Part shown: positions 1 to 38,546 of the stretch, in pieces
Numbering within the stretch: the stretch's first letter is position 1
Layout of the letters: each line of letters opens with the position of its first letter
NCBI GenBank assembly: GCA_011048995.1
Contig: DSCS01000018.1
Location: 1-64,000 of the forward strand
Reading direction: 5' to 3'
DNA length: 64,000 bases
Source: Bacillota bacterium
GTDB taxonomy: Bacteria > Macinerneyibacteriota > Macinerneyibacteria > Macinerneyibacteriales > DSCS01
Translations under genes and position numbers: made by a program
Notes under the pieces: model-generated
What the model saw: only the letters and a program-made list of their open reading frames with translations
The model's database searches: none
What the model was told of the DNA's origin: nothing

Positions 1-300
1 ATACAAAGCCTTTTTATTCATATTGAAGGAGGGCAAAATCCTCTTTTTATGGGAATGACAGCGGAGGCGAACGAGATATTTCACGAGAAGCCCTTTTTCC
101 CGTTCACCGAAAAAGAAGAACTTATTCGGAACGTCCGTATGTCAGAGAATTTTACTCTTTCTGTTTATCTTTCAATGGATTCAGACCAGTACTCTATAAA
201 GGGTGACCGGCCTTTTTTTCACCTCTTGGGCACATTGATTGCAGAAAAGCTTTTTCATTCCCTTCTTATCAGCGGGAATCTCTCCTTACCGGGGAAATAG
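1..300 (+). CDS. C-terminal end of a GGDEF-sensor paralogue (partial)
   Basis: The frame is open from base 1 to the TAG at 298-300, so this is the 3' end of a gene that begins outside the window. The visible 99 residues align by eye with the last ~100 residues of the next gene (387-5168). Shared features include the pattern SVYLSMDSDQYS against SIYLKIDSQMYS, and LLGTLIAEKLF against LLGTLLSEKLY. In that neighbour this segment follows the GGDEF domain and looks GAF-like. The simplest reading is a tandem paralogue of the same architecture, but the upstream domains cannot be seen. The internal ATG at 49 is unlikely to be a real start because the similarity extends to both sides of it. Confidence 0.75.
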   Translation: MQSLFIHIEGGQNPLFMGMTAEANEIFHEKPFFPFTEKEELIRNVRMSENFTLSVYLSMDSDQYSIKGDRPFFHLLGTLIAEKLFHSLLISGNLSLPGK

Positions 301-306
301 GAAAAA

Positions 307-333
307 TTGCGGGGCTGTTTAGAAAAATATACT
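307..333 (+). promoter_or_regulatory. Possible promoter for the 387 gene
   Basis: TTGCGG (307-312) and TATACT (328-333) are separated by 15 bases, shorter than the usual 16-18. They lie between the stop of the upstream paralogue and the next gene, leaving a leader of about 50 bases. Confidence 0.3.
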
Positions 334-386
334 CTCAAAAAGAAAGGACGACGCAAAGGGTTTGATTATGAAAAAATGAAGAGAGG

Positions 387-3300
387 ATGAATGATGACAG
401 GATGAAGCTTTTAAATAACCGTTTCGAGATCATTAAGCAAATCAACACGAATTCCAATTCTATCGTTTATGAGGTACATGACCGCCTTGAACCCGGGAAA
501 AAAAGAACACTGAAAATAGCAGCCTCCGAGGATGAATTTCAAACAGCTCTTTTGGAAAAAGAATTTACTGCTTCTCTTCTTTACCGTCATCCGCTTCTCC
601 TGCCGCTGCTTTCTTTTCATCGTCTGAAAACGATTGATTTACGTTTTGTGGATTCATTACGCCATTTTTTTATTGCGCCCCGATATACTTCACGTCTGCG
701 TTCCGAAGCAGAGGACCGGACGAAACTCTTTAACGGTCTCTATGCTTTAATCCGTTTTCTTCACGGGAATCACTTTTATCACGGGGATCTTCGTGCAGAG
801 AATTATTTTTATAATGCATCGGGATTACCTGTTTTTTTTGATATAAGCCCCCTTTATGTCAATCCCCAAATGGGACAAAAAAGCGACAGGATGATGGCAG
901 CCTCTTTGCTTTCAAAGGGGGAAAACACTTCTCATGATATTGGGGAGGCGGATTTGATGGCAGATCATGTCTTAACAGAGAGTGACGAAATCATTCAAAA
1001 TGAAATAGCCGGGAAACATTTAAAAGAGACACTTTTCCCCGGAGAAATGTTTTTACAAAAAAGAAAACTGGATAATATCCCATATGCAAAAAAGGGAAGA
1101 ATCCTTACTCTTTACGATTATCGTGATGAAGAGAACGCCTCTCTTTGGTATCATGCTTTTCTTTCCTTGTCTCAGACAAAAGGAAGTGAAGTCATTAATG
1201 TGCCCCAAACCGATGAGCCGTTAGCCTTGAGAATCCATCATCAATGCCGTTTTGTTGAAAAAGAGGTTTCGCAGCATAAAAGTATTCAGGAAAGAGTCCT
1301 TCACTGTTTGCAGGAGATCACAGCCTTCTCCCCGGTTATTTTGGGGATCGGAAACCGCCTCTTTCTCAGCTCTGAGGACAAGCGGTTTTGTGAAAAGATC
1401 AGCGCTTGTTTTTCGGAAGATTCTCTAAAACTCATTGCATATGGACGACAACCCGATGAGGAAGAATCTGTAATGATCGAGCCTCTCAATGAAGATGAGG
1501 TTGCGGAACTGTTGACATATTTTTACTATCTTGTCCCTGAGAATGAACAACCGATAAAGGAGTTTTATTCTTTTACAAAAGGAGAGCCTGTTCTCCTTCT
1601 TAAAGCCATACGCGAATCATTGGAATCAGGGGGGCATTACATCAAAGATGGCCATGGCCATTTGAGAAAATTAGGCCGCTTTTTGACAGCCGGCTCGGAT
1701 GTGAATGCGCTTCCTTCCGGTTTTAGCCGGGACATTAAAGAAGTTCTCTCCCTTATCAATGCAATGGGAGGGAAAGCTCCTTTGCATTTAAGAAATATTC
1801 TTGATCCCAAAAGAAAAAAAGCTCTCCAGTGTCTTCTTGACGAAGGTGTCGTTTATCAGGATGACAAATTTATGGCTGTTCGCATGCCATACTATATGGA
1901 AGTTGCCGGAAGGCCGGAAAATAAGAGCATTATCGATGCCGTTTACCGGTATTTAGAGGAAATGGCCTTCGACGATGTACAATATTGGTATCCCTATATT
2001 CATTATGCATTGGAGACCGGAAAAGGGCAAAAGGCCTATGATAAGATCATTGCTTTTTACAAGAAGCTGCATCATAGGGAACGCTCTTTAATGAACCGAT
2101 ATTTTTTACGGATTTTCAGCGAGTTTTATAAAAAAGCGGATCAGTTGGACGAATCTCGTCTTTTTGATCTGTACTATTTTGTGATTCAAATCGACCATAG
2201 TAATCGTTTCGATAGGGAAACCTTAGTGAAGAAGATGGAGAAGAGCGCATCGACAGAAAGGGAAAAGCTGACCGCTTTTTTGTTTAAACTGATCACGGAT
2301 GAAAAGTCGGGGCGCCGTGAATTGGATATTCTATTTCCTTATATCAGCGATTATTATACAGATGATCTCGAGTTTTGGGGGTTGATTTTAAAAAATTACA
2401 TATTAAAACTCAATATGATGGGTTGTTTTGACGAAATCGATTCAATTTATCAACAATACAAAGCATATATTTTCTCTCTTTCTCCTAATCTGCAGGCAAG
2501 GATTTATTCAGAGATGTTTTCTTATTATCTGAATAAAGTGGATAAAAGTAAAATGATTGAATTTGCATCTCTTATGAAAAATTTATCAGAAAAGCATCAC
2601 AATGAACTGAGCCTTGAAGCCGAGTTTCAAGTGCAGAATTCAAATGCGATTATCTCTTTGCAGTTAGGCCATCTCGATGAAGCCCTTGAGAATAATGAAA
2701 AAGCACTTCAAATAGCGCATGACATGGAGCATTATCATTATGTCGCTGTCATTATGATCAATATAGGCGTTATTTACTTTTATCAGGGTCATTATCAGCA
2801 ATGTTTGGAATCATGGGAAAAAAGCATGAGCTACCGAAAAGAGGCAAAATCACATTTGCATCTTCTGACTTTAGGGTATAATATTTCGCTTGTTAGTAAA
2901 ATCATTTTAGAAAATGAAAAAGCATTGCGAACGATTCAGGAGGTCATGGGGGAGGCCAAAAGAGAATCTGCGGCAAAAGAATATGCCCGGGCGGAAAATC
3001 ATCAAGCCGAATTGCTTTTAAGTTTCGGAGACTTTTCCGCTGCGGAAAGACTGCTTCATAATGCCGGCATTTTTTTCGAACATCAGACTTCCTTCTGTCT
3101 TTCAAAGGATTATTATGCTGTCAAACTCAATTATATTTTTCAAACCAAAGGCCTTGACAGTACAAGAGCGGTATTAAAAAAGATTAAAGAAAAGTATAGA
3201 ACACCTGATGACCACCTTTGTATTGAAGAAATGTATATGAACATGGCCATGATGCTTTTTTTAGGGCATAAAAAAGGGGAAGCCGTACGTTTTTTGAAAA

Positions 3301-5168
3301 GAGTGACCCCTGAAGGTGTGCAGAAAATGGATGATACAGAAAAAAATACTTATTTTCTTTTGGAATATTTGACCGGGCTGACAGATAAGCTTAAAGAGGA
3401 ATATTTAAACACATTTATATCCTACTCTTTTTCTCTTTTTGTTCTTCATAAATATTTAGAGGATATTAAAAGAAAAAACGCTCTCTATTATGAGTATTGC
3501 GGAGAGTTCCTGGCTATAATGAAAAAATGGATCAATGGCATTCCTTATTATTACCGGGATTCTTTTTTAAAATGTAACCCGGAGTGGAATTTTCACGCGT
3601 CGTTTTTGAAAGAAAGAGGATTTGATCCTGAAACATTTCTGATGTCGGATTTCAGAAAAGACTACAGAAATATTGCTTTGAGGTATATAAAAAGGCAAAA
3701 GAAAAAAAGCATTAAAGCCTATGAGATGGCTTCAATAAGAGAGGGTGATGAAATACCCCGTTCGATTATTTATGATCTTCTGGGGATGACGGGAATGACA
3801 CGCGGGGCCTATTTTGAATATGACATGCATACGGGATGGAAACAAAAGGCGGCTGTTGATTCTAAGCCCCGTTTTCACATCTCCGTTCCCATGCGAAAAG
3901 ATTTGCTGAATGAGATCCTTTTTGAAGATAATCACAAAAAGATCCTTTTTGATTTCGGTCAGTTTGAAACTGGCCGGTTTAATTTGACAGCAGCCATGAT
4001 CATCCCGGTCCTTGATATTGAAAAAACAGCACGAAGAAATGAAAGAAAAGCAGAAGAAGGCATTTCAAAAGAAAAAAGACAATCGACATTTCATTATTTT
4101 TCACTCCGAGGATGTTTTTATCTGGATACAACAGAAGTCCTGCTGTACCCGGATGAAACGATAGGGACGGATTTGGGCCCGTTCCGTGATTACATCAATG
4201 CGGCCTTTTACTATGATTATTTGAAAAAGACAGCGCTTTTAGACTCTCTGACATCTCTTTTTAAAAGAGATCATTGGCTTAATCTGACACGACAACTCAT
4301 CGAATATGCCAAAAACAACGGGCAGAAAGTTGTTGTCGGGATTTTGGATATCGATCATTTTAAAAATATTAATGACCGATACGGGCACTCCCGGGGTGAT
4401 GCTGTCTTAAAAGATGTCAGTAAAATTATCAAATCAACAGTCCGCATTTCGGATATCGTGGGACGTTACGGGGGAGAAGAGATAGGCATCAGTATGCTCA
4501 TGCCGCCGGATGTGGATATTCATCCGATTGTGGACAGGATCAGGGCCGAGATCGAGCAGTCTGCCCTTCATTCCAATTATAGATTGACATGCAGTATTGG
4601 ATATACCGTCTATCCTGATGAGGCTCAGGCATTGGATGAGCTGATTATCAATGCAGATGAGGCTCTTTATTATGCAAAAGAAACCGGGAGAAATAAGACG
4701 GTTTACGGCAAAGAGGTTCCCAAAGAGATTCAATTAAAAAAACAAAAAATCATTAAAGACCCTGTGCGTGATATTGAAAAGATCAATACTTTTTTTAATA
4801 TTGCAGGATTGCGCCTTTCAGCGGAAAGCTTTGAAGCCGCGTTAAGAGAAGTATTTAACTCATTGGTCTCTTCTTTCCAGGCGTCTGACATGGCTGTTGT
4901 TTTATCTCGGGGGCAGGAGCATGAGATCTATATGACTTCAGCATCAACGGAAAAGATCCTTTATAAAGATTCAATCGGAAGCATTCCTTCCGGATGGAGC
5001 AAAATATCATCGCTTCTCTATCAAAAAGAGAAAGCGCTTTCCATCTACCTTAAGATCGATTCTCAGATGTATTCTCTTCAGGATGAATCTCAATACTTTT
5101 CTCTTTTGGGAACCCTTTTATCAGAGAAATTATACAGGGTGTATCATGAGAGCAGAAAAGAGGAATAA
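387..5168 (+). CDS. Kinase-like / TPR / GGDEF multidomain sensor, paralogue A
   Basis: A protein of 1593 residues with no predicted membrane segment, so probably cytoplasmic. The N-terminus resembles a serine/threonine kinase: candidate ATP lysine K43 and catalytic loop HGDLRAEN at 132-139. The glycine loop is absent and DFG is replaced by DIS, so it may be a pseudokinase. Residues ~230-420 look like a STAND/AAA-type region without a usable Walker A. A long helical TPR-like stretch follows (~550-1000). The GGDEF domain (~1295-1445) has DIDHFKNIND, an I-site-like RISD and the active-site motif GGEEI at 1362-1366, with the final F replaced by I. A GAF-like tail follows. Likely role: a stimulus-controlled diguanylate cyclase or c-di-GMP-binding hub; the input is unknown. 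The ATG at 387 directly abuts GAGAGG, so the in-frame ATG at 402 may be the true start. It is paralogous to 7804-12225 and to the gene entering at base 1. Confidence 0.8.
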   Translation: MNDDRMKLLNNRFEIIKQINTNSNSIVYEVHDRLEPGKKRTLKIAASEDEFQTALLEKEFTASLLYRHPLLLPLLSFHRLKTIDLRFVDSLRHFFIAPRYTSRLRSEAEDRTKLFNGLYALIRFLHGNHFYHGDLRAENYFYNASGLPVFFDISPLYVNPQMGQKSDRMMAASLLSKGENTSHDIGEADLMADHVLTESDEIIQNEIAGKHLKETLFPGEMFLQKRKLDNIPYAKKGRILTLYDYRDEENASLWYHAFLSLSQTKGSEVINVPQTDEPLALRIHHQCRFVEKEVSQHKSIQERVLHCLQEITAFSPVILGIGNRLFLSSEDKRFCEKISACFSEDSLKLIAYGRQPDEEESVMIEPLNEDEVAELLTYFYYLVPENEQPIKEFYSFTKGEPVLLLKAIRESLESGGHYIKDGHGHLRKLGRFLTAGSDVNALPSGFSRDIKEVLSLINAMGGKAPLHLRNILDPKRKKALQCLLDEGVVYQDDKFMAVRMPYYMEVAGRPENKSIIDAVYRYLEEMAFDDVQYWYPYIHYALETGKGQKAYDKIIAFYKKLHHRERSLMNRYFLRIFSEFYKKADQLDESRLFDLYYFVIQIDHSNRFDRETLVKKMEKSASTEREKLTAFLFKLITDEKSGRRELDILFPYISDYYTDDLEFWGLILKNYILKLNMMGCFDEIDSIYQQYKAYIFSLSPNLQARIYSEMFSYYLNKVDKSKMIEFASLMKNLSEKHHNELSLEAEFQVQNSNAIISLQLGHLDEALENNEKALQIAHDMEHYHYVAVIMINIGVIYFYQGHYQQCLESWEKSMSYRKEAKSHLHLLTLGYNISLVSKIILENEKALRTIQEVMGEAKRESAAKEYARAENHQAELLLSFGDFSAAERLLHNAGIFFEHQTSFCLSKDYYAVKLNYIFQTKGLDSTRAVLKKIKEKYRTPDDHLCIEEMYMNMAMMLFLGHKKGEAVRFLKRVTPEGVQKMDDTEKNTYFLLEYLTGLTDKLKEEYLNTFISYSFSLFVLHKYLEDIKRKNALYYEYCGEFLAIMKKWINGIPYYYRDSFLKCNPEWNFHASFLKERGFDPETFLMSDFRKDYRNIALRYIKRQKKKSIKAYEMASIREGDEIPRSIIYDLLGMTGMTRGAYFEYDMHTGWKQKAAVDSKPRFHISVPMRKDLLNEILFEDNHKKILFDFGQFETGRFNLTAAMIIPVLDIEKTARRNERKAEEGISKEKRQSTFHYFSLRGCFYLDTTEVLLYPDETIGTDLGPFRDYINAAFYYDYLKKTALLDSLTSLFKRDHWLNLTRQLIEYAKNNGQKVVVGILDIDHFKNINDRYGHSRGDAVLKDVSKIIKSTVRISDIVGRYGGEEIGISMLMPPDVDIHPIVDRIRAEIEQSALHSNYRLTCSIGYTVYPDEAQALDELIINADEALYYAKETGRNKTVYGKEVPKEIQLKKQKIIKDPVRDIEKINTFFNIAGLRLSAESFEAALREVFNSLVSSFQASDMAVVLSRGQEHEIYMTSASTEKILYKDSIGSIPSGWSKISSLLYQKEKALSIYLKIDSQMYSLQDESQYFSLLGTLLSEKLYRVYHESRKEE

Positions 5169-5609
5169 GCAATCGCTATTAATGCTTTTCAAAATAAAAA
5201 ACGAAGCCGCAATTAAACACATGAATGTGAATAACATGTGAATAAGTGAGGTTTCAGGCCTCGAAAAAAAATTTTCATAAGCTTTCAGTAGAAGTCAAAA
5301 GAAAGCCGCTCTCCTTTCAGATGTAGTATCAAGGACAGCCAAGCATCGGAAAGGATGTACCCAAAAAAGCATATTCAAGCGAAAAGGGTATGAGAATGGG
5401 CCCTGTGTTGAATCTATCGTGTCTTCGGCGCCGCATAAGTCTTTCAAATGGGTCTGTATGAAAAGAAAGAGCGGGTGCTATTATATTTTCTCAGTCTTCA
5501 GACAGGAAAGTTCAAAGAGAGGGAACAATACAAGCTATCGATTGTGAATAACTTGCCGATTAAATTGAAGTTAAGAAATCACCAGGGAACATAAATAAGA
5601 AAAAACTGC
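5169..5609. other. Intergenic region, no convincing gene
   Basis: About 440 bases without a supportable gene. It contains a direct repeat of ATGTGAATAA with an 11-base period (5225-5234 and 5236-5245). A 48-codon ATG frame at 5448-5594 has no ribosome binding site. The region could be decayed sequence or a long regulatory leader. Confidence 0.5.
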
Positions 5610-5642
5610 TGTCTGCACAGCAGACAATTCAGGACGTATAAT
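5610..5642 (+). promoter_or_regulatory. Operator-like palindrome with -10 box
   Basis: A perfect inverted repeat TGTCTGC-aca-GCAGACA (5610-5626) lies about where a -35 element would be, followed by a consensus -10 TATAAT (5637-5642). No good -35 is visible. This suggests a promoter controlled by a dimeric regulator binding the palindrome, reading into the small ORF at 5701 and possibly the 5900 gene. Confidence 0.45.
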
Positions 5643-5700
5643 AAAATCATAAAAGGAACTTAACGATGTGATGATAACAATCCGGTCAAAGGAGGGGCGC

Positions 5701-5838
5701 TTGGTTGATTATTTGCTTTTGGCTTTTTTAGGACTATTGGCCGTGACCTTGAATTTTCTGGATTATAAGCGCAAAAAAGAGTCTGCCGGCTCGAAGAACG
5801 AAAAGAACAGCGAGAGTATTTCTGCGGATTTGTTTTGA
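5701..5838 (+). CDS. Small membrane protein, 45 residues, TTG start
   Basis: A near-perfect Shine-Dalgarno AAAGGAGGGG sits five bases before a TTG. The frame encodes one hydrophobic helix (roughly residues 4-18, LLLAFLGLLAVTLNF) followed by a charged tail rich in K, E, S and N, ending with TGA at 5836-5838. An in-frame ATG at 5671, with AAGGA at 5653, would give a longer 55-residue form. It is followed after 61 bases by another gene whose N-terminus is also membrane-spanning. Function unknown. The evidence is the ribosome binding site and the membrane-protein composition; I recognise no family. Confidence 0.55.
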   Translation: MVDYLLLAFLGLLAVTLNFLDYKRKKESAGSKNEKNSESISADLF

Positions 5839-5899
5839 ACAGGTTTTTCGTTAAGGATTAATCCTAAGCCGGAAAGGGAGTCCCGGGGGAAAGGAGAAT

Positions 5900-6550
5900 A
5901 TGAAGAAGATAACGGTCTTTGGGCTGTTGAGTTGTGCTGCTCTTATGGTTATGGGGCATTATTTTATTTATCAGGGAGGGCTAAAATCGTTTTTCATCGA
6001 AATGATCCTTTTGGGTATCGCTGTTTTTATTTCATTAAAACAGCATGGGGGATCTGATGTGCAAAAGAAAAAAGCCTTAATTCGGGATGATGTCGGACTG
6101 ACAGGTTTTCAATTAAGGTTTTTGTATTTTCCTGATAAAAAGAAGAGAAAAGCTTTGATTGAGGGCCGTATTTTTGCCGCAGAACCTTCGGAATGTTTTT
6201 CATGTTCAACCGCTTTTATGTTTCAACAAAACGATATTGAAATTTCAGCTTCTCAAGAGATTGTCATGCCGGGCCGAAGTCAAATGGTTTCATTTACCAT
6301 TGAAGATGAAAAAAAAGTCCAAAGCCTTTATAGGGCAGCCCAAGCGGGTGAAGGACGATACATGATGCAGTTTCGCTACCCCGCAAAAGGGGGCGGGCAC
6401 AGGACAAAAATATGTGAGTTCACCGCTGATTCTGCTTTGCAAGATCCACGTTCTGCAACAGTGCAAATTCAGTCAAAAGTGGACAATGAACCTGCAGAAA
6501 AAATTATTCCTTTATCCTGCATATCATGGATATTGGCTTCAGGACGGTAA
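5900..6550 (+). CDS. Hypothetical membrane-anchored protein
   Basis: A protein of 216 residues with two predicted transmembrane helices near the N-terminus (about 5-22 and 30-46), then a soluble domain of about 150 residues with mixed beta-type composition. The start is supported by AAAGGAG seven bases upstream. No family or catalytic motif is recognised. It lies between two giant GGDEF sensors and just after the 45-residue membrane ORF, so it may belong to the same functional unit, but this is inferred from position only. Confidence 0.6.
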   Translation: MKKITVFGLLSCAALMVMGHYFIYQGGLKSFFIEMILLGIAVFISLKQHGGSDVQKKKALIRDDVGLTGFQLRFLYFPDKKKRKALIEGRIFAAEPSECFSCSTAFMFQQNDIEISASQEIVMPGRSQMVSFTIEDEKKVQSLYRAAQAGEGRYMMQFRYPAKGGGHRTKICEFTADSALQDPRSATVQIQSKVDNEPAEKIIPLSCISWILASGR

Positions 6551-6654
6551 CCCTTTGATGAACGTCTAATGATCAGACTCTCAAAGAGTGAAAATCTATT
6601 CTTTACAGAGGTAAACATTCCGTTATCATACTCTCTGAATCAAGGGAGATGCGG

Positions 6655-7746
6655 ATGTACGATATTGTTATTGTCGGAGCCGGGCCGGCCGGTTCGGCGT
6701 TTGCACGTTTCATCAGCGGTCATTATAAAGTTCTTCTTTTAGAAAAACGCCCCATGGAAGAAGAAAATTTTACAAAAAGAAAATGCTGTGGTGGGCTTTT
6801 AGCTCCCGATGCCCAAAAGGCATTATCCCGTTTAGGCATGGGGGTTCCGCTGAAGGTTCTTGCAGAGCCTCAGCTTTTCAGTGTTCGGACCCTTGATTTT
6901 GATAATGATCTCCAAGGCTTTTATAAGCGCTTTTATCTGAATATAGACCGGGAAAAGTTTGACAGATGGCTCTACTTTTCTATTGGTTCTCATGTCGAAA
7001 AGAAAGACAATGTCTCTTTTCTTGCATTTTTGGAATTGAATGACCGGATCGTCGTTGATTACAAAGAGAACGGGGAAGCCAAAAGTGTTGAAACGCGCTT
7101 TCTTGTGGGAGCCGACGGCGCCGGATCCCGGATAAGGAGATCATTCTCCCCCCGCTTGCCGGCTGCAGATTACTTGGCGTTGCAGTATACATATAAAACA
7201 CCTGTGAATACCCCGTTTTACACTTCAATTTTTGACAAAAGTATAACGGATTTTTATTCCTGGATCATCCCCAAAAACGGATGTCTCTTGGTGGGAGGAG
7301 CTCTTCCTGTTTCCCCTGTGGTCAAAGAAACCTTTGAAAAACTGATTGTAAAACTCAAAGAGAAAGGCCTGATTCAAGGAGAGGTCTTGCACAAAGAGGC
7401 AAGCTTTATCTGTCGGCCGAGGCGCAGGCGCAGTATTCAAACCGGAACTCATCGCCTTGCTCTTATCGGCGAAGCCGCAGGCTTTATCAGCCCCAGCTCA
7501 GCCGAGGGGATCAGTTATGCATTACGGAGTGGGGAGCTTCTGGCGGAATGCATGAATAGAAGCCTGAACAGATTCCATAAGGAGTATAGGAAAAAAACAA
7601 TACCGTTAAAGATAAATATTATTATAAAAAACATCAAATCCTTTTTTATGTATCATCTTTTTTTTCGAAAAGTTATTCTTAGATCCGGACTTTTTTCGAT
7701 GAAAGTCTCATTTTTATCCTCCTTGGATAAAAATAAGCGGAACTAA
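6655..7746 (+). CDS. FAD-dependent oxidoreductase, geranylgeranyl reductase family
   Basis: A flavoprotein of 363 residues. The N-terminal dinucleotide-binding motif VGAGPAGSAFA, a KCCGGLLAPDAQ segment typical of geranylgeranyl-reductase-like enzymes, the second FAD motif GADGAGSR, and RLALIGEAAGFISPSSAEG near the C-terminus are all present. Family members reduce isoprenoid double bonds or act as related FAD monooxygenase-like enzymes; the substrate cannot be told here. The C-terminus is basic and hydrophobic, consistent with membrane association. An ATG six bases further upstream directly abuts the GGGAG ribosome binding site, so the start at MYDIVIVG is preferred. A promoter-like TTTACA and TATCAT pair lies about 20-50 bases upstream. 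It sits between two sensor paralogues with no obvious functional link. Confidence 0.85.
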   Translation: MYDIVIVGAGPAGSAFARFISGHYKVLLLEKRPMEEENFTKRKCCGGLLAPDAQKALSRLGMGVPLKVLAEPQLFSVRTLDFDNDLQGFYKRFYLNIDREKFDRWLYFSIGSHVEKKDNVSFLAFLELNDRIVVDYKENGEAKSVETRFLVGADGAGSRIRRSFSPRLPAADYLALQYTYKTPVNTPFYTSIFDKSITDFYSWIIPKNGCLLVGGALPVSPVVKETFEKLIVKLKEKGLIQGEVLHKEASFICRPRRRRSIQTGTHRLALIGEAAGFISPSSAEGISYALRSGELLAECMNRSLNRFHKEYRKKTIPLKINIIIKNIKSFFMYHLFFRKVILRSGLFSMKVSFLSSLDKNKRN

Positions 7747-7767
7747 TGTCTTAAGTTGAATTCTTCA

Positions 7768-7796
7768 TTGATAGCAGAGCGTTTCAAAGATATGAT
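7768..7796 (+). promoter_or_regulatory. Promoter predicted to give a leaderless mRNA
   Basis: TTGATA (7768-7773), a 17-base spacer and TATGAT (7791-7796). The -10 ends seven bases before the ATG at 7804 and no Shine-Dalgarno is present, so transcription should begin at or next to the start codon. Confidence 0.55.
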
Positions 7797-7803
7797 ATAG
7801 GGT

Positions 7804-10800
7804 ATGGAAAGAATCAACGGACGTTATACAATTCAAAAAGAAATGGCTAAAGGGGAGTTCGGCGTTATTTATCAGGTGCTGGACTCCGATGACCCGAAAT
7901 GTCTCCTTAAATCCATGAAGATCTATAACTCGGATAAAATGGGAGATTCCTGGCTCGGACAGTTTAAAAGAGAGTATAAATACTTAAGCGAAATCTTTTT
8001 GCCCTGTGTTGTAAAGGTCTATGACTTTGATTCGATCCATACGATTGACGGCGCGGCCTTTATGGGGAACTACTGTTTTTATACCATGGAATATTTGGAG
8101 TATCCTTCACTTTTTGAACTATGGCAAAAGAATGAGATAGAGGATCCCGATGCCGTGCTGCAATCTGTCGGACATTATCTCTCCCTTATGCATCAATACG
8201 ATTATGTTCACGGCGATTTGAATCTGAAGAATATTCTTCTCACACCGGATCACAATGTCATCTTTATCGATCTGGAACCCGGAGAAGAGGCTGAAAAAGA
8301 TATCAACGATTTTAGAGAGATCACAGAGCTTCTGAACCCTACTTATCACTCTTCGACTGTGTTGCCGGACATTGATTTTATTTTTGACCGTTTTTCCTTC
8401 ACTCTGGACATGGTTCCTGAAATCAAAGAGGAGTGTGTGAAATTGTTAAATCAGCTTTATGAAAATGAAGGAATGACAGTCAGCCAATTGACGAATATCC
8501 CCTCAGATATTATCCTTCCGCTTGAAGATTATATCCGAATGAGTCTGCAGGCTGAAGGCTATGTTTTTATAAAAATCTCCGGTTCAAAAACCCCTTACTC
8601 TGTTATGAAACATTTTATTCATTATCTATTTTCGGAACCGCGCTATCAACCCCTTATCCGAAAAGACAGAGCGCTTTTGCAGCATATTATGACTTTGCAG
8701 GAGGGCGATGACGGTGATCTGCAGATCTCTGTAGGCGATGTTGAAATAACAGGGACCTTTGTGCGGCTCTTTGAAGAGCTTTCCTATTATATCAAACCTG
8801 TTATTTTTATTGACGGGATTGATTTTACAGATGCAAAAAGTATTGAGATCTTGAAAAAAACGATACAGCTTTATAGCGGTAAAGCCTTTACCCTGATCTT
8901 TCATGGGAATTCGCATTTTATTTCCGAGGGAGATGTGCAGCTTACTCGCTATTTCACAGCGGAACGGATGAACGAAACACAGCGGAGCAAGGAGCTGGTG
9001 AATGGATTTCTTGGTCTTTTTGAAAGTATAGATATGCAGGAATTAAAGAAGTATCTTTCTTCAGCAGGATTCTGGAAAAGCATTGCTTTTATGATCAACT
9101 TAAAACAGTGGCGTCCTTATTTTGAATACAGAGATGGAGCACTGGTTTTTTCCGGAGACGCTGAAGCACTTTTTTCCGCCCCGTCTTACAGAAGAGTCAT
9201 TGATAATCTCTTAGAATTAGCATCTTCCCGAAAACTTCTATCGGCGATGGTCTATTTCAAAAAACCCGTAAGAAAGGAATTTTTGAAAAGCTTTTTTGGG
9301 CCGGGCTTTGCACAGGAGTTTGAAAAGTTGAAAACAGAACGGATTATTGCCGAGTATTATAATGCCATGGCAGAGCCTGCAGATTATGCCTTATACGAAG
9401 AGTTAAAAAAGCGGATAAGGCAACTCCCTCTCGGCGAATCGGAAAAAAACATCAAAAAAGTTCTCGCTGTTTATGAAAGGGGAGAAGGCAGCCTGAGTGA
9501 TAATGAATTGTCGCGGTATATTCAATATTTGCTGAGGCTGGAGGATTATAAAAGAGCCGCCGATGTGATCCAACGGCTGATATATTTCCCGGAAAAACTC
9601 AGCGACTCAGAAATTGCGGAACGCTATCGGGAAATCATGGAAGATTTTTATCAGTCACACGGATGTTCTTTTGAGTGCATAACACAACCCGGGAAGAGAG
9701 CCGTTATCGAGATCCTCTTTATCAGAAGCTTGTTTTCAGAAGAGGATGAAAAAGCGGTCCCATTCTATGATCGGGGGATGGAGGAATATCAAGGAGAAAG
9801 GGAAAAGGCACTATTTGCTCTTTTCAAATTTTCGAAATTGAATATTCTTAAAAAAACCGAGGAGATCAAGCCGCTCATTGATTTCATTCTTGAGAGCATT
9901 GAATCTTTAGAGCCGGGTTATCAGGCGCTTTTTTATGCGGAGGCAAGCAATTTCTATGAACAAAATTGGGAGCATGGCCTCGCTGTTCAATATGCCAGGA
10001 AAACGCTTTCTCTTTGCCGGAATAAAGAAAAATGTGCTTTGTGTTATCATGCAATGACGACCATATTCTCTTCGCTTATCTATCAGAATGATGTCAAAAG
10101 GGTGAACGCTTATGCCCGTTATTTTATTAAGATGGGAGAAAAAGATCAGAATTATAATTGGCTTTACAGCCTTCACAATAATTATGGGGTCTTTTATTAT
10201 CGGATGATAAAGCATGACAAAGCGATTGAGCAGTTTAAGCTTTCGTCTCAGTATGCCAAAAAAGGACATAATTACCGCAAGATTATGATTACATTGAACA
10301 ACATTTCGATCTTTGAACCTGATGTCGACAAAAAAATCGGATATCTTAAAGAAGCAGCTTCTTATGCGAAGATGATCAATGAAAAAATGACACTGCTCCT
10401 CATAATCACAAATATGCTTAATACCTATTATCTGACCGGGTCTTTTCAGGAAGCCTGGGAATTGGTGAAAAAAAATGAAAAAGCACTTTTTTCGCCTTTG
10501 CAGATCAGCAATAATTCCCTTCTCCGTCGGCAGCTTCATTTTTACTATGTTGTTCAATGGTTGCTGGTTTTGAGAGGAGATAAAAAATATCAGAAGCAAA
10601 TATTACATATTCTTTCCGCGACGCCTGTTAATAAAGAGAATCCCTTCTCTCACTATTATGAACTGGATATTCTTTTGGCCCGGCTTTTTGTTGAAGGCTA
10701 TCAACCCGCCCACAGAAAAACCTTTGAATCCCTTATGGAGAAAACCATAGAGGGTTTTGAGATGAGCGCTTACTTCACTTACATTGTCCCGCATCTATCA

Positions 10801-12225
10801 AAAGAGGAATTTCGAAAAGCCAAAAAAGAGATCCATAAAAAAATGCTGAAAAAGCATGGAGAAGTCTTCTCGGATTATGAGATGGTGTTCAAAATTGAAG
10901 AGGATCCGCGGCTCAGAGAGCCGGAAAAACGCATCCGTTATATTCGGCAGAATTTTAAAATTTCACTTTATGATCATTGGGCTTCTGCGGGGCAATATTT
11001 TTATTGGAAGATTCAGCTTCTTTTGGCCAAAGCTTTGTATGATACAGGTTCTGCCGACTTTAAAAAACATCTGAGCCTTTTTGTTGAGTATTATAAAAGG
11101 GCCATGGAACAGGCAAAAGGAAGTCGCTCCGCAACTCCGACCTTTTTGTTTCATCTCAAAGAATACTGCGAAGAATTTTTCCCCCTGATAAACCTTGACC
11201 TGAAAAAAGGGAAAAAATGCCCCTCCTTGAATGTTATTATCAGCAGTTATCGACAACTGACCGATCAGCTCAAGGATTCCCATCCGGCCGATCCCGCATA
11301 TTTAAGCAATGCCATGAAAGCTGTCAGCGCAAACTTTTTTTATGACCGTATTATATTCTTTCAGAAAGAAGGGACGGAGTTTGTTGAAAAAGTGCGTATT
11401 CATTCAACTCCGGTCTTATATCACCCACGTGAGGAACCGGCTGACCATGATTATGCTTTATGTGATTATGACGGACGTATTCACAGGTGTGAAAAGTGCG
11501 GCCATTCTGCTTTAACGGAATATATGATCATTCCGCTCATGGATAAGAACGCCGTTTTGCGCTTTTCAAAAGAAAAAACCAATGGGAGTTCATCCCTGAA
11601 CAGAAAATCACATCTTCCTCTGTTGGGCTATATTTATATGGACAAAAAGCATTTGGTAAAAACTGATTATGATATGTCCATGTTGGAGATGGTCCAGCTC
11701 TACTTCCTCCGTTATTTGGAGACCGTCATCTTGGAAAATGTCTATATGCGGGATGCCCTGACGTCACTCTATGTGCGGGATGTTTTTATGAATGCTGTTA
11801 AAGACTATATTTATACAGGGGCAAATCGTCATAAAAGATTTGTCCTCTGTATGCTTGATATTGATCATTTTAAAGAAGTCAATGACCTTTACGGGCATCA
11901 GAAAGGAGATGAGATTTTAAAAAAGACAGCCCTTCTTGTCAAAAAATTGCTCCGTTCTTCCGATAACATCGGCCGCTACGGCGGCGAGGAATTTGCGCTG
12001 ATGTTCCCTGATGAGGGCATGTCTTCAGGAATGAAAATCGCCGAGCGTATCAGAAAAACCATCGAAGAGTCCAAGCTTATGGGTTCGTCGAGAAGCCTTA
12101 CCGTAAGCATAGGCCTGGCGGCTTACCCTGAAGATTCCAAATGGGTGGAAGAGCTTATCGGGGTGGCTGATAAACGTCTGTACACAGCAAAACAGCAGGG
12201 ACGCAACCGCATTGTGGGAGTTTAG
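7804..12225 (+). CDS. Kinase-like / degenerate STAND / TPR / GGDEF sensor, paralogue B
   Basis: A protein of 1473 residues, paralogous to 387-5168. The N-terminal kinase domain is better preserved: glycine loop KGEFGVIY, a lysine in the KSMKIY segment, catalytic loop HGDLNLKN at 136-143, and DLE in place of DFG. Next comes a STAND/AAA-like region with a Walker B-like strand VIFIDGID but, at the Walker A position, ISGSKTPYS with no GK[ST]. TPR-like helices follow (~550-1000), then a GAF-like stretch with a small cysteine cluster (HRCEKCG). The GGDEF domain carries DIDHFKEVND, I-site RSSD and an intact GGEEF at 1393-1397, so diguanylate cyclase activity is plausible. Unlike paralogue A, it ends right after GGDEF. 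Input signal unknown. The start codon has a promoter immediately upstream and no ribosome binding site. Confidence 0.85.
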   Translation: MERINGRYTIQKEMAKGEFGVIYQVLDSDDPKCLLKSMKIYNSDKMGDSWLGQFKREYKYLSEIFLPCVVKVYDFDSIHTIDGAAFMGNYCFYTMEYLEYPSLFELWQKNEIEDPDAVLQSVGHYLSLMHQYDYVHGDLNLKNILLTPDHNVIFIDLEPGEEAEKDINDFREITELLNPTYHSSTVLPDIDFIFDRFSFTLDMVPEIKEECVKLLNQLYENEGMTVSQLTNIPSDIILPLEDYIRMSLQAEGYVFIKISGSKTPYSVMKHFIHYLFSEPRYQPLIRKDRALLQHIMTLQEGDDGDLQISVGDVEITGTFVRLFEELSYYIKPVIFIDGIDFTDAKSIEILKKTIQLYSGKAFTLIFHGNSHFISEGDVQLTRYFTAERMNETQRSKELVNGFLGLFESIDMQELKKYLSSAGFWKSIAFMINLKQWRPYFEYRDGALVFSGDAEALFSAPSYRRVIDNLLELASSRKLLSAMVYFKKPVRKEFLKSFFGPGFAQEFEKLKTERIIAEYYNAMAEPADYALYEELKKRIRQLPLGESEKNIKKVLAVYERGEGSLSDNELSRYIQYLLRLEDYKRAADVIQRLIYFPEKLSDSEIAERYREIMEDFYQSHGCSFECITQPGKRAVIEILFIRSLFSEEDEKAVPFYDRGMEEYQGEREKALFALFKFSKLNILKKTEEIKPLIDFILESIESLEPGYQALFYAEASNFYEQNWEHGLAVQYARKTLSLCRNKEKCALCYHAMTTIFSSLIYQNDVKRVNAYARYFIKMGEKDQNYNWLYSLHNNYGVFYYRMIKHDKAIEQFKLSSQYAKKGHNYRKIMITLNNISIFEPDVDKKIGYLKEAASYAKMINEKMTLLLIITNMLNTYYLTGSFQEAWELVKKNEKALFSPLQISNNSLLRRQLHFYYVVQWLLVLRGDKKYQKQILHILSATPVNKENPFSHYYELDILLARLFVEGYQPAHRKTFESLMEKTIEGFEMSAYFTYIVPHLSKEEFRKAKKEIHKKMLKKHGEVFSDYEMVFKIEEDPRLREPEKRIRYIRQNFKISLYDHWASAGQYFYWKIQLLLAKALYDTGSADFKKHLSLFVEYYKRAMEQAKGSRSATPTFLFHLKEYCEEFFPLINLDLKKGKKCPSLNVIISSYRQLTDQLKDSHPADPAYLSNAMKAVSANFFYDRIIFFQKEGTEFVEKVRIHSTPVLYHPREEPADHDYALCDYDGRIHRCEKCGHSALTEYMIIPLMDKNAVLRFSKEKTNGSSSLNRKSHLPLLGYIYMDKKHLVKTDYDMSMLEMVQLYFLRYLETVILENVYMRDALTSLYVRDVFMNAVKDYIYTGANRHKRFVLCMLDIDHFKEVNDLYGHQKGDEILKKTALLVKKLLRSSDNIGRYGGEEFALMFPDEGMSSGMKIAERIRKTIEESKLMGSSRSLTVSIGLAAYPEDSKWVEELIGVADKRLYTAKQQGRNRIVGV

Positions 12226-12714: not shown

Positions 12715-15700
12715 ATGAAAAAAATTAAGAAAGGATATTTCAGATTTCCGGCTCTTCACGGAACGTCCGTTGTTTTCACGGGGGAGGGTGATCTTTGGCG
12801 TTGTTCTGTAGAAGGGGGCGATGCTCAGAGACTTACAAGCCACCACGGATCAGAAACACATCCCCGGATCTCTCCTGACGGGAAATGGATTGCTTTTACA
12901 GGAAAATATGAAGGCTTCCCTGAAGTTTTTGTTGTGCCCCTATGCGGGGGGCGCCCCAAAAGGTTGACCTATAATATTGATGCTTCGTTCGTTGTAAACT
13001 GGACTCGGGACGGACGCATCCTTTACCGCAGCACAAAGAACACAACACTGCCCGATGTCCGTCTCTTTCTCATTGACCCGGTCAGCCTTCAAGAGGAGCC
13101 CGTGCCCCTGAATCAGGCCAGCGAGGGGGTTTATGACGATGCCGGCCGGATCCTCTATTTTACCCGCTTGCCCTTTCAGGGGAGTCATACAAAAAATTAC
13201 AAGGGAGGCTCTGTAGAGCAGATCTGGAAATTTGACGGTAAAAAGGAGGCAGAGCCCCTGACAGAAGATTATCCCGGAACAAGCAAAAATCCTATGTACT
13301 ATAATAAGCGCCTTTATTTTCTATCCGATAGAAACGGGGGATTAAATCTGTGGTCTATGAACGAGAGTGGCAAGGACCTTAAACAGCATACTTTTCATGC
13401 CGCTTTTGAGGTCAGGAGTGCTGATCATTATAAGGGACAGATCCTTTACCAATGCGCCGGGGATCTCTATCTTTATGATATTGAACAGGATAATGAAAAA
13501 AAGCTTGAGATTTCTCTGATCTCTGACTTTGACCAGACGCGTGAAAAATGGATAGAAAACCCTTCGGACTATATCGAAGACTATGACCTCTCTCCCGATG
13601 GCCGGAGCCTTCTCCTGACGGCTCGAGGAAGGATATTTTACGCTTCAGCCGGGAAAGGGCGTCTTTTTCAAGTTTCTCAAAAGGAGGGCGTGCGGTATAA
13701 ACATGCTGTCTTTGTCAAAAACAGCGGATCCTGCCTCGCGTTATCTGATGAAAAGGATGAATTTGAGTTTTCCCGTATTCTTTTCGGGAAGAGTCAAAAA
13801 GAGACTCGTATTACCGGGAAATCAAAGACGATCAATCTTAAAGGATATCCCTCTCCGGACGGGAGTGTGATGCTTTATGGTGACAAAGACCGCCGGGTGT
13901 GGCTGGCAGACCTGAAAACCGATGAACAAAAAGAGATCGTCCGCTCCGATTATGAGGAAGTCACCGTTTTTGCCTGGTCTCCGGACAGCTCTTTTGCCGC
14001 TTTTACGATGACAGCTGCTTCTAACTTGATGACACAGATATTTTTGTATGACAGAAAGAAAAACGAGATATTCCCTGTGACATCTGAACGTTATCACTCC
14101 TTTTCTCCCGCGTGGAGTCCTGACGGGAAATGGCTTTATTTTCTTTCAGATAGACATCTGAACACTGTAGTCCCTTCTCCCTGGGGACCAAGACAACCTG
14201 AGCCTTATTTTAAAAATCCCGACAAAGTCTATATGCTGGACCTGACAGGTGGGCAAAGATCTCCCTTTTTGGAAAACGATGAATTACAGCCGGCAGAAAA
14301 AAAGAAAAAGGAAAAAGACGATGCAGCGTCGCTTCATATGGTGATCAAACGAAAAGGGCTGAATGAGCGGTTGTGGGAAGTCCCCGTCAGGCCGGGGCTT
14401 TTTTCTGATCTGCAAGTGACAGACGACCGGCTTTTTATTATGGAAATGGTCATGGACGAAGAGATGAGTTTCACCCTTAACATGACAAAAATTCAAAATG
14501 AAAAACCTGCGGAGATGATAACACTTTGCGATAAATGCAACGGTTTTCTCCTTTCAGCCGATAAAAAGAAAATCCTATTGAAAAAGAACAGCCATTTTTA
14601 TGTCTTTGACAGCACTCTGGATAAGATCGATCAATGGGATGATATCAAAGTCGATCTCTCTTCCTGGAGGTTCTCCGTAAATCCTGTAAGCGAATGGGCG
14701 CAGATGCTCAAGGATGCCTGGCGCATGGAACGGGATTACTTTTATGACAAAGAACTTCATGGAGCTGATTATGAACATCTTTTGAGACTTCATCTACCTC
14801 TTGTGGAGAAGGTGACAGACAGAGAAGAATTGGACGACCTTATCGCCATGCTGGTCAGCGAACTCCGCGCTCTTCATACTTTTGTCAGAGGGGGAGATAT
14901 CCGCGAAGGACGTGAAAAGATCAATATCGGCTGTTTAGGAGCGGAATTCCGGGAAGAGGAAGGGCATTGGTTTATCGGACATATTTATAAAACGGATCCG
15001 GACCTTCCCGGAAAATGTTCTCCCTTGCTTCGTCCCGATCTGGATATAAGAGAAGGCGATGAACTCATTGCCTTCGACGGGATCGAAGTCAAGGGTGAGC
15101 AGAGCCCTCACAGACTACTGCGGGGGAAGGTCCGCTGTCAGATCATACTTGCAATGAAAAGACAGGGGAAGCTTTATCATGCTGTGGTCAAAACACTTTC
15201 TCCCGAAGACGAAGTCTCTATGCGTTATGCTGAATGGGAATATTTAAAAAGACTGGCCGTGGAAAAAGAGAGTGGGGGATCCATAGGGTATTTGCATCTC
15301 CGGGCCATGGGACGCGATGATTATAATGAGTGGGCCCGTCAGTTTTATCCTGTTTTTGACAGAAAAGGGCTGATTATCGATGTGCGTCATAACCGGGGAG
15401 GGAATATCGACAGCTGGATCGTTGAAAAACTTCTTCGGAAGGCTTGGTTTTACTGGAAGGCTCGTGACAGCGCTCCCCATTGGAATATGCAATATGCGTT
15501 CACCGGACATCTTGTTGTGCTCTGTAATGAAAGGACGGCGTCTGACGGGGAAGCCTTTTGTGAAGCAATCAAAAGACTTAAATTGGGAACTGTTATCGGC
15601 CGAAGGACCTGGGGAGGAGAGATCTGGCTTTCCTTTAATAATCTTCTTGTGGATAAGGGGATTGCATCGGCGGCGCAAATGGGTGTTTACGGTCCGGAAA

Positions 15701-15891
15701 GTGAATGGCTGATTGAAGGCCATGGTGTCGAACCGGATATCGATGTGGACAATCTGCCCTTTGAGACATATCAGGGAAAGGACAGACAGCTGGAGTATGC
15801 GTTAGGCTATTTAAAGAATAAAATAAGAGAGCATCCGGTAGAAATACCTGAAGCGCCGCAGTTCCCCAATAAGACAAAAAACCGCAAATAA
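12715..15891 (+). CDS. Tricorn protease homologue, cytosolic type
   Basis: A 1058-residue protein with the Tricorn layout: N-terminal beta-propeller repeats with TolB-like SPDGKWIAF motifs, a second propeller, a PDZ-like region (~770-830) and a C-terminal serine peptidase domain of family S41 type. The likely nucleophile is S943 in TASDGE, and H721 in ALHTF matches the Tricorn histidine. The Ser that normally precedes this His is Leu here. A C-terminal IEGHGVEPDI segment fits the conserved Glu region. There is no signal peptide, so the protein should be cytosolic and could degrade oligopeptides downstream of ATP-dependent proteases. AAAGGAGG precedes the ATG. A second, exported homologue lies at 19895-23119. 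Confidence 0.9.
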   Translation: MKKIKKGYFRFPALHGTSVVFTGEGDLWRCSVEGGDAQRLTSHHGSETHPRISPDGKWIAFTGKYEGFPEVFVVPLCGGRPKRLTYNIDASFVVNWTRDGRILYRSTKNTTLPDVRLFLIDPVSLQEEPVPLNQASEGVYDDAGRILYFTRLPFQGSHTKNYKGGSVEQIWKFDGKKEAEPLTEDYPGTSKNPMYYNKRLYFLSDRNGGLNLWSMNESGKDLKQHTFHAAFEVRSADHYKGQILYQCAGDLYLYDIEQDNEKKLEISLISDFDQTREKWIENPSDYIEDYDLSPDGRSLLLTARGRIFYASAGKGRLFQVSQKEGVRYKHAVFVKNSGSCLALSDEKDEFEFSRILFGKSQKETRITGKSKTINLKGYPSPDGSVMLYGDKDRRVWLADLKTDEQKEIVRSDYEEVTVFAWSPDSSFAAFTMTAASNLMTQIFLYDRKKNEIFPVTSERYHSFSPAWSPDGKWLYFLSDRHLNTVVPSPWGPRQPEPYFKNPDKVYMLDLTGGQRSPFLENDELQPAEKKKKEKDDAASLHMVIKRKGLNERLWEVPVRPGLFSDLQVTDDRLFIMEMVMDEEMSFTLNMTKIQNEKPAEMITLCDKCNGFLLSADKKKILLKKNSHFYVFDSTLDKIDQWDDIKVDLSSWRFSVNPVSEWAQMLKDAWRMERDYFYDKELHGADYEHLLRLHLPLVEKVTDREELDDLIAMLVSELRALHTFVRGGDIREGREKINIGCLGAEFREEEGHWFIGHIYKTDPDLPGKCSPLLRPDLDIREGDELIAFDGIEVKGEQSPHRLLRGKVRCQIILAMKRQGKLYHAVVKTLSPEDEVSMRYAEWEYLKRLAVEKESGGSIGYLHLRAMGRDDYNEWARQFYPVFDRKGLIIDVRHNRGGNIDSWIVEKLLRKAWFYWKARDSAPHWNMQYAFTGHLVVLCNERTASDGEAFCEAIKRLKLGTVIGRRTWGGEIWLSFNNLLVDKGIASAAQMGVYGPESEWLIEGHGVEPDIDVDNLPFETYQGKDRQLEYALGYLKNKIREHPVEIPEAPQFPNKTKNRK

Positions 15892-19894: not shown

Positions 19895-22800
19895 ATGAAA
19901 AATGTTGTTTTATGTCTGTTGATGGTTTTTGTTTTTTCATCTGTCCGGGGAGAGGATTATCAATGGAAACGCTATCCGTCCCTGTCACCCGACGGCCGTT
20001 CTATCGCCTTTTCCTATCAGGACGATATTTATATCGTTTCCTCACAAGGCGGAAAAGCCCGTCAGCTGACGGCTCATGCGGCCTATGACTTTAGGCCGGT
20101 CTGGTCGCCGGACGGGAAAACAATTGCCTTCGCTTCTTTTCGCTATGGCCACTTTGACATTTTTATTGTACCGGCTGAAGGGGGTGTGCCGCAACGAGTG
20201 ACCAACGCCCCCGGCTCTGAGATCCCCTATACCTTTACTCCTGACGGAAAGGGGATCCTTTTTAGCGCTTCTATTCAGGATGATCCTCAAAACAGGCTTT
20301 TCCCTGCCTATTTTTTAGATGAACTCTATCGGGTCGATGTTAAAACGCAAGAGATAACCCAAATACTCACAACCCCTGCTGAAGAAGTCTTTCTTTCCCG
20401 AACAGGAGACTTTTTTCTTTATCAGGATCTCAAAGGCGGAGAAAATGCCTGGAGAAAACATCATACATCTTCTGTCGCCAGAAACATCAGGCTTTATGAC
20501 TGTAATGCTCAGACACATCGTATCCTGACATCTTTCAAAGGAGAAGACCGAAATCCAGTCTTAAACGCATCAGAGCAAACCGTTTATTACCTGACAGAAC
20601 AATTCGGTGATTTCAATATTGCCTCTTTTCCTTTGAACGACCCGAAAAAAGTTAAGCAGATTACCTTTCATGAGACTCACCCCGTTCGCTTTCTTTCCAT
20701 TTCCCGTAATGACATTTTATGTTACGGGTATCATGGGGAGATCTATCTTTACCGGGACGGAGAAAGCCGAAAAATCGATATTAAAATCATCAATGAGCCG
20801 AAAAATTATAATATTGACAGAAAAGTCCACACCGGGGGAGTGAGTGAGCTGGCTGCTTCCCCTGACGGGTCTGAGGTCGCCTTTGTGGTCAGAGGGGATG
20901 TGTTCGTGACATCCGCTCAATTCAAAAAAACGATACGCATTACGGATACGCCGGAGCAGGAGCGTTCTGTAGACTTCAGCCCGGACGGGCGCTCTGTCGT
21001 CTATGCCTCTGAGCGCAACGGAAGCTGGGATATTTACATGACGCGCCTGATCGAAAAAGAAGAAAATTCATTTGCCTACGCAACGGAAATGGAGGAAATC
21101 GCTTTGGTCGAAGGCCCTGAAGAGGCCTTTCAGCCGCTTTTTTCTCCAGACGGCGAAAAGATCGCCTATCTGGAAGAAAGGCAGATTTTAAAAGTCATTG
21201 ATATTAAGTCGGGGAAGACAAAAACAATCTTGACCGGGGAAGAAAATTACTCCTATCGGGACGGAGATATCTTTTTCAGCTGGTCGCCCGACAGCCGATG
21301 GCTGATATTTGAGATGATGAATGAAGGCAAAAACACAAATGATATCGGTTTGAGGGATGCAGAAGGGAAAGGCCCCATATTCAATCTCACCAACAGCGGG
21401 TATTACAACTGGGGCGCAAGCTGGGAAATGAAGGGGGAAGCCCTGATTTATAATACCGGGAAATACGGATCCCGCCGGTTCGGAGGATGGTTTAATGAGT
21501 ATCATGTCTATGCCCTTTATATGAGCCATGAAGCTTTTCAAAAGGCCCTTTTAAATAATGAAGAGTATCAGGAGTATATCCGCATTCATAAAAAGGATGG
21601 AAAAAGTGAGGAAGATAAAGATAAGAAGAGTGAAAAGAAGGAAAAAGCGAAGAGAATAGATATTGACTGGAATCATCTGGAAAAACGGCATGTCAAGCTG
21701 ACCCGTTTTCCTGCAAGCCTCTCGGGAACTTTTCTCTCTGAAGAAGGGGATGTTCTTTACTATCTGTCCGGGCATAAAGATAAAACAGAACTTTGGAAAG
21801 TGGACATTCGGAAAAATGATTATACACGCCTGACCTCTTTTTCGGAAAACGCTCTGCTTTATGATGTCAATGATAAAAGAGATACGCTCTGGCTGCTTTC
21901 CAACGGATCGATCATCTCTTTCAATGTGACGACTCAAAGCAGACAGACGATTTCTTTTGAAGCAGTGCAGAATTTGAAAACAAAAGAGGAAAGAAGTTAC
22001 TTTTTTGAGCATATCTGGCGGCAGGTCAAAAAGAAATTCTATGACCCCGGCCTTCATGGCGTTGACTGGGAGATGTATAAAAAGGAGTATGAGCCTTTTC
22101 TGGCTTCAATTAACAATGATTACGATTTTGCCGAATTGGTCAGTGAATTATTGGGAGAATTGAATGCGTCACATACAGGGGCTTACGGACGGCTTTCTTC
22201 TCAGGAAAATGACAGAGTCGCTAGTTTGGGTGTGTTTTTCGGCTATGACAATGAAAATGAAAAAGGGATCACCATTAAAGAAGTCATCAAAGGCGGGGCG
22301 TTGTTCGAAAGCGGGGAAGATGTGCCTGCAGGCAGTGTGATAACCCATATTGACGGACAGGAGGTAAAAACCCTCAACGATTACTTTTCCGCCCTGAATC
22401 ATAAAGCCGGGACCTTTGTGAAAGTGACATTGAAAAAACCCGGGCTTTTCGGAGGGACAAAAGAGATCTTTGTTAAACCCCATGTGACTGATTATTGGCA
22501 TCTCTATGATCGTTGGATTGAAAGAAACAGGGAAACGGTGGAGACTCTCTCTAACGGACGCCTGGGCTATATTCATGTGCCTTCGATGAATTCCAACAGT
22601 TTCAACCAAGTCTATCATGATCTCTTCGGGCGGTACGGACATACAGAAGGGGTGATTGTGGATACACGTTTTAACGGAGGGGGTAATCTGACTCAGGAGC
22701 TTGTCATGCTGTTAAACGGCAAAAAGTATATCGACTGGACCCCCCGAGGACAGGAATACGGCTCCGATACCTCACGGTATTGGTTTAAGAAGAGTATTGT

Positions 22801-38483: not shown

Positions 38484-38546
38484 AGTAAAGGGAAACTTTT
38501 TTTTACAGACAGGACTCTTATGAAGCAACCGGGAGAAAGGAGTACA

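Follow-up and report, generated by a model that had tools for sequence, protein, structure and literature searches.

A cluster of giant genes opens the window

The window, the whole 64,000-nucleotide stretch that we analyzed, covers the opening 64 kb of contig C1 in a 1.88-Mb genome of 75 contigs that belongs to Candidatus Mcinerneyibacteriota. It opens with the tail of one giant gene, followed by two complete ones whose products we call A and B. The features of this region are as follows, in window positions.

1-300 (+): end of a third A-type giant (C-terminal tail), the rest of which is encoded on contig C34 (L038:10965-15563)
387-5168 (+): giant protein A, type A, 1593 aa; complete ORF
402-884 (+): A, truncated kinase-like head, residues 6-166; K43, E59, H132, D134, N139 and D152 kept
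885-2066 (+): A, linker and STAND-like region without Walker A
2067-3671 (+): A, TPR solenoid, with TPR matches in Pfam
3672-4220 (+): A, segment between TPR and GGDEF; final residues GCFYLD
4221-4703 (+): A, GGDEF domain, GGEEI, I-site RISD; Pfam 2.5e-38
4704-5165 (+): A, C-terminal extension of about 150 aa, common to types A, E, K and D and absent in B
5900-6550: gene between A and B, unrelated to the giants; no Pfam or NCBIfam family
6649-7746: FAD-binding protein between A and B, unrelated to the giants; NCBIfam PRK11445
7804-12225 (+): giant protein B, type B, 1473 aa; complete ORF
7804-8298 (+): B, truncated kinase-like head, residues 1-165; K39, E57, H136, D138, N143 and D156 kept
8299-9483 (+): B, linker and STAND-like region without Walker A; Walker-B-like IFIDGIDFTD
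9484-11193 (+): B, TPR-like solenoid
11194-11730 (+): B, segment between TPR-like solenoid and GGDEF
11731-12216 (+): B, GGDEF domain, GGEEF, I-site RSSD; Pfam 5.4e-39

Contig C34 and the window, which starts where contig C1 starts, share an exact overlap of 123 bases, at the end of the former and the start of the latter. The tail at 1-300 therefore completes the second giant on C34, and four giants lie consecutively over about 23.3 kb: two of type A on C34, then A and B. The sequence-only reading had described an array on one strand within 12 kb; the array is present, but its extent was understated. Searching the genome with A and B recovered eight giants of this family, about 2% of the genome. 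Besides the four in the cluster, there is a second B-type copy on C15, and three other types have one copy each: on C29, on C3, and divided over C49 and C17. The same reading gave A and B a shared layout of four parts (kinase-like head, STAND-like region, TPR-like section, and GGDEF domain). All four are found in both proteins, but that listing missed a segment of about 180 aa between TPR and GGDEF. Comparison with one reference GAF domain did not confirm a GAF identity for this segment or for the C-terminal extension, and the extension of types A, E, K and D matched no family.

Elsewhere in the window, two closely spaced plus-strand genes (12715-15891 and 19895-23119) encode tricorn-like proteases with a PD40 propeller, Tricorn_C1, and peptidase S41. 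At 27938-31709, a periplasmic-binding protein gene overlaps a gene for a PAS-histidine kinase-receiver hybrid, likely as a sensor pair. An ORF of 1115 aa at 38520-41867 has no Pfam match at 1e-5.

A and B belong to one family found in two phyla

Direct BLASTP comparison of A with B aligned the GGDEF domains (2e-37), the heads (E 3e-4), and part of the TPR region (E 0.002). In profile comparisons, the A group matched intact kinase-AAA-TPR reference proteins over 905 columns (E 6e-24) and the B group matched the same references over 849 columns (E 2e-32); a whole-chain profile match to such intact proteins spanned 948 columns (E 5e-51). The BLASTP matches in head and TPR region, together with the ties to common references, bear out the proposal that A and B are homologous outside the GGDEF domain. 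We considered and rejected the idea that they are recent duplicates: A is 36 to 38% identical to other A types and only 17% identical to B overall, the two fall into different subfamilies, and the extension of about 150 aa is present in A only. Across the family, types are mostly less than 25% identical to one another and paralogues are 17 to 38% identical, and a tree splits the members into types K/D, B, E, and A.

Each of the three genomes examined from the order contains full-length relatives, and in a second phylum all four genomes examined carry a single B-type copy. The same-genus genome, a Candidatus Mcinerneyibacteriota MAG (JAFGWL010000056.1), carries two A copies on one contig, and orthologues between the two genomes are 56 to 66% identical. 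Gene order is kept there as A-type, peptidase M19, A-type, small gene, FAD gene; the window's A and B have no positional counterpart in that genome. A survey of 386 sampled genomes at E 1e-30 added no further genome with a full-length match. Four others matched with the head only, in proteins with an intact kinase domain, and one other matched with the ATPase/TPR part. A scan of genome contigs gave no match for B alone and, for the A alignment, only the same-genus MAG. All full-length copies are long open frames without internal stops. Residue and motif counts below refer to 19 members from seven genomes and two phyla.

The kinase-like head ends after the DFG position but keeps its catalytic residues

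The heads of all types gave significant profile matches to four intact kinase-AAA-TPR proteins, and these matches end right after the DFG position. E-values were 4e-13 for A, 4e-29 for B, 3e-22 for E, 6e-38 for K, and 4e-8 for D; scores ranged from 57.7 to 244.8, compared with at most 19.3 for shuffled controls. In addition, a profile of eight A/E heads matched StkP, a Ser/Thr kinase with a solved structure in the PDB, at 9e-12. In the Pfam search, A alone had no Pkinase match, and B matched Pkinase at 1e-8 over residues 8-158, ending at profile position 143 of 263. The Pfam match in B and the profile matches in all five groups confirm the kinase-like N terminus that had been proposed. All five Pkinase matches in the genome of the window lie in this truncated-head family. 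PADLOC matches of B (PD-T4-6, mad6) are kinase-domain matches and give no evidence for a defense protein, a candidate role that we rejected.

Heads across the family stop at Pkinase position ~134 to 158 of 263, so that the activation loop, the APE motif, and the C-lobe are missing. Types A and E have lost the Gly-rich loop (G52 in PKA numbering; the site reads NTNSNS in A), which is partly kept in B (AKGEFG); the head of A thus lacks the Gly-rich loop, the activation segment, and the C-lobe. In contrast to these losses, the Lys, the αC Glu, the HP Pro, the HxD His and Asp, the catalytic-loop Asn, and the Asp at the DFG position are each kept in 17 or 18 of the 19 members. These positions and the LH His all fall among the 18 best-conserved of the 185 head columns (p 4e-6 in a rank test that treats related sequences as independent). 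Among eight A/E heads, K38, E54, P64, H127, D129, N134, D147, and D162 are invariant, and eight of the 18 invariant columns of that alignment are such key positions, including the Asp expected to start helix F.

A published comparison of the kinase-like superfamily lists ten key residues, including K72, E91, D166, N171, and D184 in PKA numbering, and describes the extended activation loop as ePK specific and the post-DFG region as highly divergent between families (PMC1821047). A and B carry the equivalents of K72, E91, D166, N171, and D184, and sequence homology to kinase domains places their heads in this superfamily; by alignment the heads carry nearly all ten residues. The sequence-only reading had noted an altered DFG in both proteins, and this is correct: the position reads DIS and DLE in A and B. 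Its conclusion that the heads are pseudokinases does not follow, however, because nearly all key residues of the superfamily are retained. Only the FG has changed, and the metal-binding Asp, the Lys, the Glu, the HxD, and the Asn are near-invariant; neither A nor B has suffered the loss of Lys, HxD Asp, or DFG Asp that defines a pseudokinase. Nor do the heads fit the Hanks-type (ePK/PknB) kinases, which have an activation loop, APE, and a C-lobe after DFG. With the C-lobe missing, the heads of A and B are therefore unlikely, on sequence grounds, to act as general protein kinases.

Deviation from the catalytic residues is seen only in the C3 member (L041:6241-11283) and, partially, in two members from other genomes. 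The C3 protein has lost the kinase catalytic-loop residues and has a degraded GGDEF domain (MGEEF, and I-site KSND with the Arg lost). It is the sole copy in its genome that looks inactive at both head and GGDEF, and it may be an inactive regulator.

The STAND region has lost its P-loop throughout the family

No P-loop was found at the aligned Walker A site in any of the 19 members. Pfam and PDB profile searches did not detect the STAND part, which is recognized by comparison with intact relatives and by a structure model. The STAND region alone matched the intact AAA region at E 8e-12 with a score of 90, against 14.8 for the best of 20 shuffles. A model of A residues 6-560, built from a shallow alignment of only the window proteins and one related locus, had pLDDT values of 70 to 84 across most of the STAND core and low values in the head; a single-sequence model of the head of B reached pLDDT 39. 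Foldseek returned the STAND-TPR protein 6mfv as the first match to the A model, followed by Dark, NLRs, MalT, and other AAA proteins, with low TM-scores because the kinase part is poorly modeled. As in 6mfv and MalT, the modeled A has an NTPase-fold core, a winged helix, and a TPR arm, the combination of core, helix, and repeat sensor that marks STAND proteins. Known STAND ATPases bind ATP through Walker A, whereas the giants have none. A STAND-like region without Walker A, as first proposed, is thus supported by motif, profile, and model, and the suggestion that it acts as a binding scaffold remains reasonable. The TPR-like section is likewise supported, by Pfam TPR matches in A and by the profile match that runs through the TPR of the intact references.

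Conservation is uneven along the chain. The head is better conserved than the STAND region in 13 of 13 pairs, and GGDEF is the best or near-best conserved segment, which argues for function at both ends with a freer middle.

The GGDEF output and its c-di-GMP context

Both proteins have the GGDEF domain expected from their motifs. Metal-site, GG[DE]E signature, and I-site residues are retained in 18 of the 19 members, C3 being the exception. The last signature position is changed in A, and RxxD is present in A and B. From these motifs, both GGDEF domains are intact-looking and the proteins are putative diguanylate cyclases. Many other GGDEF domains occur in the genome, along with six HD_5 (HD-GYP-type) proteins that are candidate c-di-GMP hydrolases; EAL and PilZ had no match in this genome. 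Hydropathy profiles of six of its family members contained no hydrophobic stretch of transmembrane strength. Separately, a PAS-GGDEF protein (36745-37653) adjoins a DUF554 protein (36068-36748) on the minus strand of the window.

Comparison with known systems

Kinase-STAND-TPR proteins occur in various bacteria and are little understood. The closest intact counterparts that we compared are Pkinase-AAA_16-TPR proteins (L101, L102, L103, and L105), which are colinear with the head, STAND, and TPR of the giants and share the start INxRYxI. They have the full kinase C-lobe and the P-loop, both lost in the giants, and they carry either no output or a GAF plus sigma-54 activator where the giants carry GGDEF. 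One of them, L103:224-5440 from another phylum, is an intact kinase-AAA_16-TPR-GAF-sigma54-activator fusion and would make a suitable outgroup.

Fusion of a eukaryote-type kinase with a c-di-GMP output had been called uncommon. That is fair, but the combination of kinase, TPR, and GGDEF is not new: an 1826-aa Clostridium thermocellum protein (gi|23020879) has a kinase, six TPRs, and GGDEF (PMC1262709). As far as its described domains go, this protein resembles A and B in its size, its TPRs, its N-terminal Ser/Thr kinase-like domain, and its C-terminal GGDEF; it was reported singly. Kinase heads on other outputs are also known. Cyanobacterial dual kinases of the HstK / cbSTKIII type join a regular STK head to a histidine kinase output with GAF, are expanded in some genomes, and include one adjacent duplicate pair (PMC2176072). 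They are like the giants in placing a Ser/Thr kinase head on a C-terminal signaling output, which is GGDEF in the giants. Finally, the TOMM system kinase/cyclase fusion proteins (NCBIfam TIGR03903) are, judging solely by their family name, kinases joined to a nucleotide cyclase. The TIGR03903 profile hits L103 in its ATPase/TPR part, and among the matches listed there is none to A or B.

Our literature search, limited to open-licence papers, found no paper on a kinase-STAND-TPR-GGDEF family and no description of a family that has expanded and kept the catalytic residues while losing both Walker A and the kinase C-lobe. This absence is weak evidence because only open-licence papers were covered.

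A model for the giants and its alternatives

As far as sequence can carry the case, it establishes the domain order, the homology to intact kinase-STAND-TPR proteins, the loss of Walker A and C-lobe, the retention of catalytic residues, the relative conservation of the segments, and the expansion of the family. Based on these observations, we propose, with a probability of roughly 55%, that A and B represent diguanylate cyclases that are soluble, respond to several inputs, and use the known kinase-STAND-TPR chassis, with an ATP-binding head as gate. The TPR arm, probably with the neighboring segment before GGDEF, would bind a protein or a small ligand. The STAND remnant would be a joint that couples this arm to the output and is probably no longer an ATPase switch, since its P-loop is lost. 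The shortened head, in which the ATP/Mg residues remain, most likely binds ATP, serving as an energy gate or phosphorylating its own chain; having lost the activation loop, APE, and the substrate-binding lobe, it would be expected to act on few outside substrates. The combined inputs would set the dimerization of the C-terminal GGDEF domains, and the dimers would produce c-di-GMP under feedback control through the I-site. Against a cyclase stand the lack of PilZ and EAL matches and the GGEEI of A, and loss of the Gly-rich loop may weaken ATP binding in types A and E.

A rather unlikely but serious alternative is that a pseudokinase head and a dead STAND ATPase serve as mere binding scaffolds for a working cyclase. 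The universal loss of Walker A fits this idea, as do a head without activation segment and C-lobe, the missing Gly-rich loop of types A and E, and the lost catalytic-loop residues of C3. A pure scaffold, however, has no need of K, E, HxD, N, and D together, and these positions are near-invariant in A, B, and most members while the remaining head drifts. It is less probable still that the head is a special-purpose or small-molecule kinase in the style of Kdo, RIO, or APH, acting on a metabolite or on its own chain while c-di-GMP forms a second, parallel output. The HGDL..N loop, the short post-DFG region, and the absent ePK activation loop would agree with such an enzyme, weak Pfam matches to Kdo, RIO1, APH, and ABC1 appear beside Pkinase, and the main differences between kinase-like families come after DFG (PMC1821047). 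Yet Hanks-type kinases are the best matches, and proteins of other genomes that are homologous over the whole chain carry a full Hanks kinase. That the copies are decaying duplicates on their way to pseudogenes, their missing motifs lost by simple decay, is very improbable: paralogue divergence (17 to 38% identity) and the degraded C3 would suit it, but the frames are long and open, orthologues remain 56 to 66% identical and the head is one of their best-conserved segments, and identical losses recur in 19 members from seven genomes and two phyla.

Implications

Within the model of a multi-input diguanylate cyclase gated by its head, a more specific and tentative idea, which we hold at clearly lower confidence, is that a minimal head, under strong constraint and lacking an activation loop, has replaced the STAND P-loop as the ATP-dependent switch: ATP binding or self-phosphorylation by the head would control c-di-GMP synthesis at the far end of the chain, an arrangement that would be previously undescribed. 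The occurrence of both losses in one chain, with the kinase residues kept, suggests that the switch has moved from the nucleotide site of the STAND region to that of the head. A small 1.9-Mb genome invests about 2% of its length in this family. If the proposal is true, c-di-GMP would provide a simple biochemical read-out of how signals pass along multi-domain chains.
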